Shown here: piece by piece, positions 42,687 through 49,337 of the stretch
Layout: the number at the start of each line of letters is the position of its first letter
How positions within the stretch are numbered: position 1 is the stretch's first letter
Origin: Sandaracinus amylolyticus
GTDB taxonomy: Bacteria; Myxococcota_A; Polyangia; Polyangiales; Sandaracinaceae
DNA length: 64,000 nt
Reading direction: 5' to 3'
Assembly (NCBI RefSeq): GCF_000737325.1
Contig: NZ_CP011125.1
Coordinates: 9,176,001-9,240,000, forward strand
Notes under the pieces: model-generated
The model's input: the letters and a program-made list of their open reading frames with translations, nothing else
What the model was told of the DNA's origin: nothing
The model's database searches: none
Position numbers and translations under genes: made by a program

Positions 42687-42899
42687 ATGGGGGTACGGCT
42701 GCAGGCCATCGTCGACCGCGTGCGGACCGAGTCCAAGGGACTCCCGAACGTGGATCTCGCGAGGCTGAACTTGAAGGTTGGACGACCCCTCTCGCGCCAG
42801 GCCGCCGAGCTGCCGGACGATCCGACGCTCGTCGCGCTGGCCGAGAGCATCGCCCGAGAGATCCTCTCGGAGAGTGGACGAGGAGGCGGACGAGGATGA
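42687..42899 (+). CDS. small hypothetical protein, first gene of V4R unit
   Basis: A 70-residue protein, amphipathic-helical at the start (GVRLQAIVDRVRTESK) and at the end (TLVALAESIAREILSESG), with a Gly/Arg tail. No family is recognised. It overlaps the next gene by 4 nt (ATGA), and a good promoter lies immediately upstream with almost no leader, so no ribosome binding site is available. The size and coupling suggest a partner of the V4R-like proteins or an adaptor. Coding status is supported by its place in the unit. Confidence 0.6.
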   Translation: MGVRLQAIVDRVRTESKGLPNVDLARLNLKVGRPLSRQAAELPDDPTLVALAESIAREILSESGRGGGRG

Positions 42900-43408
42900 G
42901 CGAGCCCGTGTTCGATCGCGAGAAGGGCACGATCGTGATCGGAGGCTCGCGCCTCGTCTTCCACTGCCATCACTACAACGTGTTCCTGCAGCGCTCGCTC
43001 GAGGACGCCCTCGGCGATCGCGCGGTGAGCATCCAGCGTCGCGCGGCGACCGAAGCGTCGCGCACGATGCTCGAGCGGCTCTTCGCCCAGGCGCCCGACG
43101 AGACGTTCGCGGCGCGCATGTCGCGCGCGGCGAGCCTCTTCGCGACGCTCGGCTTCGGTCGTGCCGACGTGAGCGAGCTGACGCCGATGGGCGGGCTCGT
43201 GACGATCTCTCCGTCGCACTACGCGGTGGGCTGGATCGCGAAGTTCGGTCCTTCGTCGCGGCCCGTCGATCACTTCGCGACGGGCTTCTTCCGCGGCGCG
43301 CTCACCGCGGCGACCGGTCTCGCGCCCGAGCGCGTCGACGCGGAGCAGCGCGCGTGCGCGAGCATGCGCGAGGGTGACGCGACCGAGATCCTCCTGAAGG
43401 TGCGTTGA
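42896..43408 (+). CDS. V4R-like small-molecule-binding domain protein (variant)
   Basis: A 170-residue protein whose pattern fits the V4R (4-vinyl-reductase) domain: an N-terminal strand GGSRLVFHCHHYNVFLQRSLE, a helical middle and a C-terminal HFATGFFRGALTAATG with CASMREGDATEILL. The canonical C-x3-6-GD-xx-C pattern has lost its second Cys here (ATE instead of RCE). V4R domains bind hydrophobic or tetrapyrrole-like ligands and usually sit in sensory proteins. No DNA-binding domain is attached. It is a diverged relative of the protein encoded at 43410. It overlaps its upstream neighbour by 4 nt and precedes the next by 1 nt. Confidence 0.6.
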   Translation: MSEPVFDREKGTIVIGGSRLVFHCHHYNVFLQRSLEDALGDRAVSIQRRAATEASRTMLERLFAQAPDETFAARMSRAASLFATLGFGRADVSELTPMGGLVTISPSHYAVGWIAKFGPSSRPVDHFATGFFRGALTAATGLAPERVDAEQRACASMREGDATEILLKVR

Positions 43409-43409
43409 G

Positions 43410-44054
43410 ATGGCGATCGACGAGAAGACGATCGTCGAGGCGGTCTCCGGCCTCGGCATCCGTGGCAACGAAGAGGGGCTGATCCCGGCGTTCGGGCTGC
43501 ACCTCACGCAGCACTTCGCGGACTACTACAACCGCATCTCGTTCGCGGTCGCGCGCGACCTCGAGGGCAGCGGGCTCGAGGAGGACGCGCGCGCGCTGCT
43601 CGTCGAGGCGGGCCACGTCTGCGCGTTCAACACGTTCGGCGGGATCATGCAGTCGGCCGAGTGGGAGGCCGTCGTCGCGCCGATGATCCAGACGCGCGAG
43701 GACTGGATCCGCGGGATGGTCGCGGTCGTGAACGCGTTCGGCTGGGGCGTGTGGCGCATCGAGGATCTCGCGCCCGGCAAGGAGCTGCGGATCTCGATCG
43801 ACAACGCGTACGAGTGCACCGGCTGGGTGCGCGACTACCCGATCGGCAAGAACGCGCGCTGCTATCTCGCGACGGGCGGCGTGTCGGGCCTGATGAACCT
43901 GCTCTACGTGGGCGACATCACGCAGCGTCCGACGCTCGACGAGGACTACTACCGCCGGCTCTTCCGCGGCAGCGATCACTTCGTCGCGGAAGAGACGAAG
44001 TGCCTCGCGCGCGGTGACGCGCGCTGCGAGATCGTCGCTCGTCGCCCGCTGTGA
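43410..44054 (+). CDS. V4R-domain protein (canonical)
   Basis: A 214-residue protein. Residues about 100-210 carry the V4R pattern: WRIEDLAPGKELRISIDNAYECTG-like strand region, a Gly/Leu-rich helix (VSGLMNLLYVG) and the C-terminal TKCLARGDARCEIVA with both Cys, the family's ligand or metal site. The N-terminal 95 residues are helical (HLTQHFADYYNRISFAVARDL). V4R proteins are known as sensors of small ligands, and one member (BchJ) is linked to chlorophyll synthesis. No such pathway is visible here. The gene lies one base after the variant V4R gene and overlaps the next by 4 nt. Confidence 0.7.
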   Translation: MAIDEKTIVEAVSGLGIRGNEEGLIPAFGLHLTQHFADYYNRISFAVARDLEGSGLEEDARALLVEAGHVCAFNTFGGIMQSAEWEAVVAPMIQTREDWIRGMVAVVNAFGWGVWRIEDLAPGKELRISIDNAYECTGWVRDYPIGKNARCYLATGGVSGLMNLLYVGDITQRPTLDEDYYRRLFRGSDHFVAEETKCLARGDARCEIVARRPL

Positions 44055-44380
44055 GCGGCGAGCTGCTCGATCGGTTCACGGTCGGCGCGCTCGACGTGCG
44101 GGTGACGCGCTCGTGCGCGCGGCGCGATCTCTACGACGTGCGCGCGCCGGGCGCGCTGCCGCTCGCGCTGCGCAGCGCGATGGTGGCGCGCGCCGAGGGC
44201 GCGACGCTCGCGGGCAACGACCTGCTCTGGGTGATCGACGTGCCGCACGTGCATCGGATCACGGTGAGCGCGGCGTCGGGGCGCATCGCGGTGCTGCCGC
44301 GCATGGAGACCGAGCGGCCGGATCAGCGCGCCGCGGTGATGGCGCTCTGCGAGTGGCTCGAGGGCGCGCTCACGGCGTGA
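44051..44380 (+). CDS. hypothetical protein, last gene of V4R unit
   Basis: A 109-residue protein starting at a GTG that overlaps the stop of the V4R gene (GTGA). Short strands alternate with one C-terminal helix (RAAVMALCEWLEGAL). Sequence features such as LLDRFTVGALDVRVTRS and GNDLLWVIDVPHVHRITV suggest a compact alpha/beta domain. No family is recognised. Its last 11 nt overlap the convergent VIT/VWA gene. The four coupled genes have a single promoter in sight. Confidence 0.6.
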   Translation: MSGELLDRFTVGALDVRVTRSCARRDLYDVRAPGALPLALRSAMVARAEGATLAGNDLLWVIDVPHVHRITVSAASGRIAVLPRMETERPDQRAAVMALCEWLEGALTA

Positions 44381-46331
44381 GCAGCACGTCGGGCGCGACC
44401 GGTGCGTCGGGCGCGATCGTGTCGAGCACCGAGGACGTGGCGTCGTCGAGCGGGAGCGCGGCGGGACGCGCGATCGCGACGGCGCGGAACGGGTAGCTCA
44501 CGTCGATCCGGCCGTCGAAGCGCGGGACCTGCAGGTCGTCGACCCCGGCGAGGATGCACGACGCGAGCGAGGCATCGACGTTCTCGCCGGACACGCGCGC
44601 GCCGAGGACCTCGCGATGCGCGAGCGAGAGATCGAGCGTGACGTGCGCGTGCCAGTCGGGGCGCCCGGCGCGCGCGCCGGCGAGACATCCGCGCACGCGC
44701 GGGCCGAGCTGACGGCGCACCATTCGACGCAGCGTCTCGGCGGAGGCGGTCGCGCGGATGCGCGCGGGCGCTGGGACGCGGAGGAGCGGGGGACGTGCGC
44801 TGCGGGCGTAGAGCCCGTGGCCGATCGGCATCGCGGTGATCCACGAGTGCACGCCGCCGATGCCGCCGGGCACCGGCGGCGGCCGACGACGAGGCCGCGT
44901 CCACTTGTCGAGGTCGCCGAGCACGCGGCGATCGAGGGCGAGCGCGTCGAACGATCCCTCCTGCGCGAGCACTGCACGCAGCGCGTCGCTCGGCGACGAC
45001 GCGCGCGACGTGCGCGTGCCGACGACGAGCCGAGCTGCGCGGCCCGGAGCGAAGAACGTGAGCGCCTCGCCGGTGGGCACCGTGGCGAGATCGATCGCGG
45101 GCTCGCCGCGGAGCTCGATGCGCGCGCGCGGCGCGGGCTCGGCGACGATCGACGCGAGGTCGAAGCCTGCGCCCGCGAAGGACGCGCCGAGCGAGAGCGT
45201 CATCGTCGACGTGGTCGCGCTCGCCGCGCGCAGCGTCACGCCGCCGAAGGGCGCGTCGGACACGTTCGCGATCACCACGCGCGCGCCTCGCGCTTCGAGC
45301 GCGGCGAGATCCGCGCGGTCGAGCCACCCGTCGCCGATCACCACGACGAGCGGCGAGCGCGCGTCGTCGAGCGCGTCCGGCGGGAGGTCGAAGAGCGTGC
45401 GCGACCCGAGCGCGCCGGGAAGCTCGCTCGCGAGCCGCGCGGCGTCGAGCGTGTCGGGCGCGCACCACGTCGACGTCTCCCAGCGCGCGCGTGCTCCGAA
45501 GCGCAGCACCCGCACGCGCGAGCCCGGCGCGAGCGACGCGAGCACCGTGCGCAGCGCCGTCTCGACGCGCTCGACCGGGACGTCGAGCATCGAAGGCGAC
45601 GCGTCGATCGCGAGGATCACGTCGTGGCGCGCGACGCGACGCGGCTCGACCAGGTGCGCGTGCGCGCAGCGCGCGCCGATGCACTCGACGTCCGCGAGCA
45701 CGCGGAGCGGTGACGCGACGCGCGCCGAGATCACGGCGTCCTCGCCCGGCGCGCCGCCCGAGACCGAGAGCGTGTCGTGACCCGGCGCGACGAGCGTGAT
45801 CGACGCAGGCACGAGGCGCGGATCGGCGTCGCGCGCGGGCAGCACCAACGACGACGTCCCGCCGCGCACGACGAGCGGCGCGGCGTAGCGGACCGCGAGC
45901 ACGAGGCGCGCGCCGTCCCCGACGGGCGCGGCGCGGATCGTGAGCGCGGAGCGGCGCCACGACGCGCTCGCGATCGGACGCGACGTGCGACCACGCGGCG
46001 CGCCGTGCAGCGCGACGGCGTAGGGATCGACGTGCGAGCCCCGCGTGATCGAGCTCGAGAGCGCGCGACATCCGCCGCCGGCGCGACAGACCTCGAGCGA
46101 GATCGCCTCGGCGCCGCGAGGCAGCGCGAGCGTGTAGCCGATCTCGGCGCGCTGCGTGCCGTCGCGCGCGAGCTCGATGCGCAGCGCGATCTCGGCCACG
46201 CCCTCGGCGAACGTGACCCGCACGTCGTGCGCGACCTCGCGCACGTCCTCGGGCGCATCGAGCGTCTGCGCGTGCGCCCGCGGCGACCACGCGACCACGA
46301 CGATCACCACGAGCGAAGCCGCGCACCGCAC
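44370..46331 (-). CDS. VIT/VWA-domain protein with AgmX/PglI-like C-terminus
   Basis: A 653-residue exported protein. The signal peptide is SLVVIVVVAWSPRAHAQT, starting at GTG 46331. Residues about 25-200 look like a VIT domain; VWA follows with the MIDAS motif ILAIDASPSM (about residue 240) and Thr/Asp at VVVIGDGW. The C-terminal 100 residues match the AgmX/PglI-type domain: VRRQLGPRVRGCLAGARAG, then a second Cys in LASCILAGV and VSYPF at the end. The layout is common in myxobacterial envelope or gliding-related proteins. It overlaps the V4R unit by 11 nt and follows the tandem repeat. Confidence 0.85.
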   Translation of the reverse strand: MRCAASLVVIVVVAWSPRAHAQTLDAPEDVREVAHDVRVTFAEGVAEIALRIELARDGTQRAEIGYTLALPRGAEAISLEVCRAGGGCRALSSSITRGSHVDPYAVALHGAPRGRTSRPIASASWRRSALTIRAAPVGDGARLVLAVRYAAPLVVRGGTSSLVLPARDADPRLVPASITLVAPGHDTLSVSGGAPGEDAVISARVASPLRVLADVECIGARCAHAHLVEPRRVARHDVILAIDASPSMLDVPVERVETALRTVLASLAPGSRVRVLRFGARARWETSTWCAPDTLDAARLASELPGALGSRTLFDLPPDALDDARSPLVVVIGDGWLDRADLAALEARGARVVIANVSDAPFGGVTLRAASATTSTMTLSLGASFAGAGFDLASIVAEPAPRARIELRGEPAIDLATVPTGEALTFFAPGRAARLVVGTRTSRASSPSDALRAVLAQEGSFDALALDRRVLGDLDKWTRPRRRPPPVPGGIGGVHSWITAMPIGHGLYARSARPPLLRVPAPARIRATASAETLRRMVRRQLGPRVRGCLAGARAGRPDWHAHVTLDLSLAHREVLGARVSGENVDASLASCILAGVDDLQVPRFDGRIDVSYPFRAVAIARPAALPLDDATSSVLDTIAPDAPVAPDVLLTP

Positions 46332-46364: not shown

Positions 46365-46690
46365 CCCTCCGCTGGAGTGCTCGCCCGTGCCGAGACCGGA
46401 CGGGAGCGGGCGGAGCACGCGGACGGGAGGGCTCGGACCGGCGAGCCGATGTCGGACCCTCCGCTGGAGTGCTCGCCCGTGCCGAGACCGGACGGGAGCG
46501 GGCGGAGCACGCGGACGGAAGGGCTCGGACCGACGAGCCGATTTCGGACCCTCCGCTGGAGTGCTCGCCCGTGCCGAGCCCGGACGGGAGCGGGCGGAGC
46601 ACGCGGACGGGAGGGCTCGGACCGGCGAGCCGATGTCGGACCCTCCGCTGGAGTGCTCGCCCGTGCCGAGACCGGACGGGAGCGGGCGGA
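46365..46690. repeat. tandem repeat of 92 bp, three full copies and one partial
   Basis: Copies begin at 46365, 46457, 46549 and 46641. Copy 2 differs from copy 1 at three positions and copy 3 at one. Copy 4 matches for 50 bp, then has a 23-bp deletion and diverges. As 92 is not a multiple of three, no frame can encode a repeated peptide. It lies between the minus-strand hybrid kinase gene and the VIT/VWA gene, starting before the latter's start codon and ending 25 bp before the kinase stop codon. Confidence 0.95.

Positions 46691-46715: not shown

Positions 46716-49337
<2,622 letters not shown>

Follow-up and report, generated by a model that had tools for sequence, protein, structure and literature searches.

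What might a unit of four small, tightly coupled genes do when two of its products resemble V4R domains? The unit lies in the window, that is, the whole 64,000-nucleotide stretch of Sandaracinus amylolyticus DNA that was analysed, and its genes are packed on one strand as a sequence-only reading had described: genes 1 and 2 overlap in an ATGA at 42896, a single base at 43409 separates genes 2 and 3, and genes 3 and 4 overlap in a GTGA at 44051 (Table 1). Genes 2, 3 and 4 are called by a codon-usage gene caller; gene 1 falls under its size limit, yet is conserved. The last 11 bases of gene 4 are shared with a convergent gene (44370-46310). The conserved gene order on which that reading had staked the unit was found by profile comparison of neighbourhoods: g1-g2-g3-g4 is collinear on one strand in 12 genomes (G000, G002, G032, G037, G742, G758 and G776-G781), so the order is more than chance. 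Identity in the three nearest genomes amounts to 57-95% for gene 2 and 73-99% for gene 3, and gene 4 is conserved in inverted orientation in G288. At a gammaproteobacterial locus (L167), a 62-aa gene 1-like open reading frame lies directly 5' of separate gene 2 and gene 3 homologs.

Table 1. Genes of the coupled unit, by position in the window.
Feature	Position	Strand	Description
Gene 1 (g1)	42687..42899	+	70 aa, no cysteine; resembles the MglB-type LC7 C-terminal tail in relatives
Gene 2 (V4R-alpha)	42896..43408	+	170 aa; H23-C24 and H108 nearly invariant; zinc site mostly lost
Gene 3 (V4R-beta)	43410..44054	+	214 aa; C71, T75 and Y134-E135 nearly invariant; predicted zinc tetrad
Gene 4 (companion)	44051..44380	+	109 aa; conserved C22; new family, nearly always adjoins the V4R pair

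The proposal that genes 2 and 3 are V4R relatives is borne out by family, profile and fold, and a complete lack of V4R matches, the outcome held against it beforehand, did not occur. Pfam V4R (PF02830) scored 22.9 bits (E 8.8e-5) with window gene 3 and 16.3 bits (E 0.011) with window gene 2, both below the gathering score (curated cut-off, 31 bits), and it matched 11 of 27 gene 3 relatives (best E 1.4e-7) and 6 of 24 gene 2 relatives (best E 1.1e-9). Homologs of the two genes are present in the same 14 of 57 genomes, and the suggestion that they belong to a heteromeric sensor gains support because in many relatives, giant sulfur bacteria included, they form a single fused protein. An AF2 model of one such natural fusion (pLDDT 89.8, pTM 0.91), from a relative that is 50% identical to gene 3 and from which the fold of the window proteins was judged, shows one topology in two copies. 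Its top Foldseek matches were MopR/PoxR (E 3e-5), with TRAPPC3/Bet3 and H-NOX weaker; in structure comparison MopR matched the second half (Z 15.8) and PoxR the first (Z 15.4), and both halves then matched MJ1460, TRAPPC3/Bet3 and H-NOX. Since each half of the fused relative matches the MopR/PoxR sensor domain, both window proteins are predicted to adopt the V4R fold. Profile alignment of the C-terminal V4R motifs with MopR, PoxR and MJ1460 (E 0.1-0.2) is supportive only together with the fold. One of the 24 rows of alignment A3 (gene 2 of L063), which was used for the Pfam V4R matching of gene 2 relatives, the motif alignment and the gene 2 profile, is out of frame and could only weaken matches. 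The genome that holds the window pair has three further V4R genes (G000:C1:9382527, 3075420 and 1545145; L142-L144), which, unlike the window pair, score above the Pfam cut-off.

The unit had been described as having no DNA-binding or enzymatic partner, and this holds for the window's class only: relatives are coupled to histidine kinases, SpoIIE phosphatases, LC7/ParA genes or cysteine desulfurases. With neighbouring genes identified by Pfam and NCBIfam, we distinguish the window's own class A (1-2-3-4); class B, in which 2-3-4 precedes a TIGR01977/SclA-like cysteine desulfurase and a two-repeat protein; class C (1b, fused 2+3, 4, then an IscS/DndA-like desulfurase in 3 of 4 loci); class D (response regulator/DUF4388, ParA, LC7, LC7 with tail, fused 2+3, 4); class E (hybrid histidine kinase, fused 2+3, 4); class F (fused 2+3, 4, then a histidine kinase or SpoIIE phosphatase); and class T of the Thiotrichales (a gene 4-like gene, a gene for ~130 aa, fused 2+3). 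The impression that histidine kinases flank most loci was discarded; because the cluster behind it mixed Ser/Thr kinases with histidine kinases, kinase linkage was counted only where the genes were tightly coupled and Pfam-supported. On the gene 3 tree, 9 label changes account for 10 groups, the least possible, and because classes B and C fall in different supported clades, the desulfurase linkage would have arisen twice or been repeatedly lost. The family occurs in 16 of 284 Myxococcota and in 7 of 369 genomes of the class to which L036 belongs, a patchy distribution: it is nearly absent from two other phyla sampled and widespread in giant sulfur bacteria. The records L038 (Woesearchaeota) and L055 (Bacteroidales) are possibly stray contigs, since other sampled members of these phyla have no close homolog. 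With regard to a BchJ/4-vinyl reductase context, no bacteriochlorophyll-synthesis gene was recognised among the neighbours read. The two-repeat protein coupled after the class B desulfurase (~205 aa; L061:11435-12040, also L063, L064 and L155) has repeats that end like LVHPSxxxGFxASSLxLRLPR and no Pfam match.

Gene 1 had been said to match no known family; it indeed reaches no Pfam or NCBIfam cut-off, but it resembles the tail of a Roadblock/LC7 protein. Its place in relatives is occupied by the class D upstream protein, for which 9 of 10 PDB matches are MglB or MglC (best E 0.007) and whose comparison with genuine LC7 proteins scored 31 (decoy maximum 18.5), pointing to a Roadblock/LC7 protein of the MglB type. 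Aligned together, gene 1 and its class C counterpart matched the C-terminal tail of this protein over 57 columns with a score of 30, the maximum among 85 decoys being 14.4; gene 1 alone scored 21 against 18.6. The resemblance is good but not beyond doubt, and it is limited to the tail beyond the LC7 domain: akin to MglB/MglC as the class D protein is, gene 1, unlike them, has no LC7 domain itself. The ~130-aa upstream family of the Thiotrichales found no support as a gene 1 homolog.

For gene 4 the same verdict of no known family stands as far as Pfam and NCBIfam cut-offs go (no Pfam family and no solved relative were found), but its neighbourhood makes it more than an unknown, namely a near-obligatory V4R companion. 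Its profile (A4) found 32 places in 184 genomes of the order, 30 of which adjoin a V4R pair; related genomes are included in these linkage counts, whose events are not independent. The remaining 2 are a stand-alone paralog that lacks the conserved cysteine (G000, G002). By profile comparison, homology links the class A subfamily to that of class D (score 51, decoy maximum 14), extends to the class C genes (score 35, against decoy maxima of 15 and 19.5) and is likely for the class B genes (22 vs 13.5). The assignment of the class F and Thiotrichales genes rests mainly on position and the cysteine; profile comparison alone did not support the Thiotrichales set, which is kept as probable because of its position, the common cysteine and one gammaproteobacterial sequence matched by both profiles (E 0.01 and 1e-8). 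Gene 4 was also considered as a Roadblock/LC7 relative, for which profile comparison gave no support; with a Roadblock/LC7 or longin fold in view, comparison with the PDB gave one match at E 1. With 30 of its 32 places beside the V4R pair, gene 4 founds an undescribed companion family. The stand-alone paralog (L175:6165-6533, at about 7.426 Mb of G000:C1, and L176:5890-6258) is not near V4R genes; its neighbour, ~120 bases away, is a divergent YgiQ-type radical SAM gene. The gene 4 relative of L038 is likewise followed by a YgiQ-type gene.

Conserved residues suggest where the three core proteins might act. Across 90 gene 3 homologs, C71, T75, W85, Y134 and E135 are kept nearly throughout, as are H23, C24 and H108 across 89 gene 2 homologs, and the V4R-linked gene 4 relatives displayed have a cysteine at one common motif position (window C22), so that each core protein has one nearly invariant cysteine (C24, C71 and C22, respectively). 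The exceptions are mainly subgroup D2 (L147-L151, L165), where C71 is lost in 6 of 6 and C24 in 5 of 6 members and no gene 4 profile match was found at the loci, together with a few divergent gammaproteobacterial paralogs. The zinc site is a different matter. As the sequence-only reading had it, gene 3 retains both motif cysteines (C198 and C206) and gene 2 has lost one (C154 only). Alignment with MopR and comparison with the zinc ligands of DmpR, Cys151, Glu172, Cys177 and Cys185 (PMC7264223), gives gene 3 a predicted tetrad of C151, E195, C198 and C206, with a C-x7-C spacing as in DmpR; window gene 2 has D125, Q151 and C154 only, short of the DmpR/MopR-type tetrad. The three cysteines of the site are retained in every member of classes A and B. 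Because the site is lost in several related classes (class C, most of class D and the Thiotrichales), it is dispensable in evolution.

According to published work, V4R domains probably act on hydrophobic ligands, which they would bind, and may signal either in cis or in trans (PMC2253512; PMC10933270). The explanation that we consider on balance probable is that genes 2-4 constitute an alpha/beta V4R sensor module with an obligatory companion. Genes 2 and 3 would pair as V4R-fold alpha and beta subunits, a heteromeric counterpart of the sensor-domain homodimer of MopR/PoxR/DmpR, and would form with gene 4 one small-molecule sensing unit, possibly for redox or reactive-sulfur signals. H23, C24 and H108 of gene 2, C71, T75, Y134 and E135 of gene 3 and C22 of gene 4 may line or gate one shared, cysteine/histidine-lined site for ligand binding or covalent modification, and a structural zinc ion, here in gene 3 only, would hold the pocket as in DmpR. 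Because a Roadblock/LC7 protein of relatives ends in a similar tail, gene 1 could be a docking tail by which the sensor is presented to its output; the output would be coded next door in relatives and be unlinked in the window. We count for this explanation the signalling genes next door in relatives (hybrid histidine kinase, histidine kinase, SpoIIE) and subgroup D2, which is without both the conserved motif and gene 4, and against it that the window unit has no coupled output gene and that the window proteins stay below the Pfam V4R cut-off. The gene 3 alignment shows no equivalent of the Trp of the DmpR/MopR phenol pocket, and the ligand is therefore not transferable from these regulators.

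The desulfurase linkage fits a biochemical role at least as well as a sensor. In a sulfur-transfer or cofactor-maturation complex, which we hold to be rather unlikely, the cysteines of genes 2, 3 and 4 would either carry persulfide or serve as ligands of a metal or Fe-S species, a cysteine desulfurase would deliver the persulfide and the signalling genes would read out loading. TIGR01977/SclA-like and IscS/DndA-like desulfurases (two different subfamilies) immediately downstream of gene 4, each in its own clade, a locus in which gene 4 and a desulfurase are a single 531-aa frame, the one conserved cysteine per core subunit and the spread of the module in giant sulfur bacteria all agree with this; yet no desulfurase adjoins the window genes or occurs in the Thiotrichales loci read, the other classes are linked to signalling genes, known V4R folds bind ligands rather than catalyse, and the SufS genes near class E, which are on the opposite strand, may be there by coincidence. 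We tentatively entertain a three-protein sensing or sulfur-handling machine, with C24, C71 and C22 as its functional cysteines. Such a machine would be a new bacterial receptor class, an exchangeable front end that myxobacteria and giant sulfur bacteria combine with kinases, with phosphatases, with polarity-type LC7/ParA genes or with cysteine desulfurases.

The class D operons (response regulator-DUF4388, ParA, two Roadblock/LC7-type proteins, fused V4R pair, gene 4) bring to mind a bacterial counterpart of TRAPP/Ragulator, in which the V4R pair and LC7-type partners would regulate a small GTPase or ParA-type ATPase and so position something within the cell. Bet3/TRAPPC3 probably descends from V4R (PMC2253512), Asgard archaea have V4R/TRAPPC3 with Roadblock and longin proteins (PMC10933270), and the window pair shares with these proteins the V4R-superfamily fold, which in eukaryotes forms dimers of paralogs (PMC10933270). 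We nonetheless judge this quite improbable: no small GTPase was recognised beside any V4R pair examined, the LC7/ParA linkage is limited to one clade, gene 4 has no LC7 resemblance by profile, and the window's class has only the tail-like gene 1 and no LC7 domain. The similarity to TRAPPC3/Bet3 is, moreover, lower than that to MopR/PoxR, and no longin subunit or GTPase is known for the unit. Least probable of all is that the unit carries or chaperones a hydrophobic molecule and takes no part in signalling. V4R and TRAPPC3 folds do hold hydrophobic ligands (PMC10933270, PMC2253512) and no signalling gene is coupled to the window unit, but the core is repeatedly linked to kinases, phosphatases and LC7/ParA genes in relatives.

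Read as a sensor module, the unit is closest to the sensor domain of XylR/DmpR/MopR/PoxR, with which it has in common the fold over about 175 residues per half (Z 15-16) and, in gene 3, the C-terminal zinc motif. Unlike these regulators, genes 2 and 3 end after the sensor fold and have neither an AAA+ sigma-54 interaction domain nor an HTH; the unit has two different subunits, not a homodimer, and an extra companion gene; its conserved Cys/His residues lie outside the zinc site and the pocket Trp is not seen. Stand-alone V4R proteins such as MJ1460 have the C-terminal V4R motif and fold in common with the window members, which differ in staying under the cut-off, in a longer N-terminal half with its own conserved motifs and in being two paralogs that are always paired. 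Among open-licence literature we found no paper joining V4R with cysteine desulfurase or '4-vinyl reductase' with myxobacteria, and a 2025 paper describes photoactive yellow protein fused to V4R, a different architecture (PMC12826048). The four-gene unit seems to be an undescribed sensing module, and several of the protein families described here are without a Pfam or NCBIfam entry. V4R is known mainly from single regulators, in which it senses phenols, and as the probable forebear of Bet3, a subunit of the TRAPP vesicle tether; an alpha/beta V4R pair with a companion would, if true, show the fold working heteromerically outside eukaryotes, by a mechanism that is open to direct test through the natural fusions and the small set of nearly invariant residues.

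Two features lie beyond the convergent gene. A 92-bp tandem repeat (46365-46690; 3.5 copies, 96% match) separates that gene from a gene on the minus strand (46716-49337) for an 873-aa hybrid PAS-GAF histidine kinase with a receiver domain, which lies opposite in strand to the unit, at a distance of ~2.3 kb, and is found beside the unit in G002 too.
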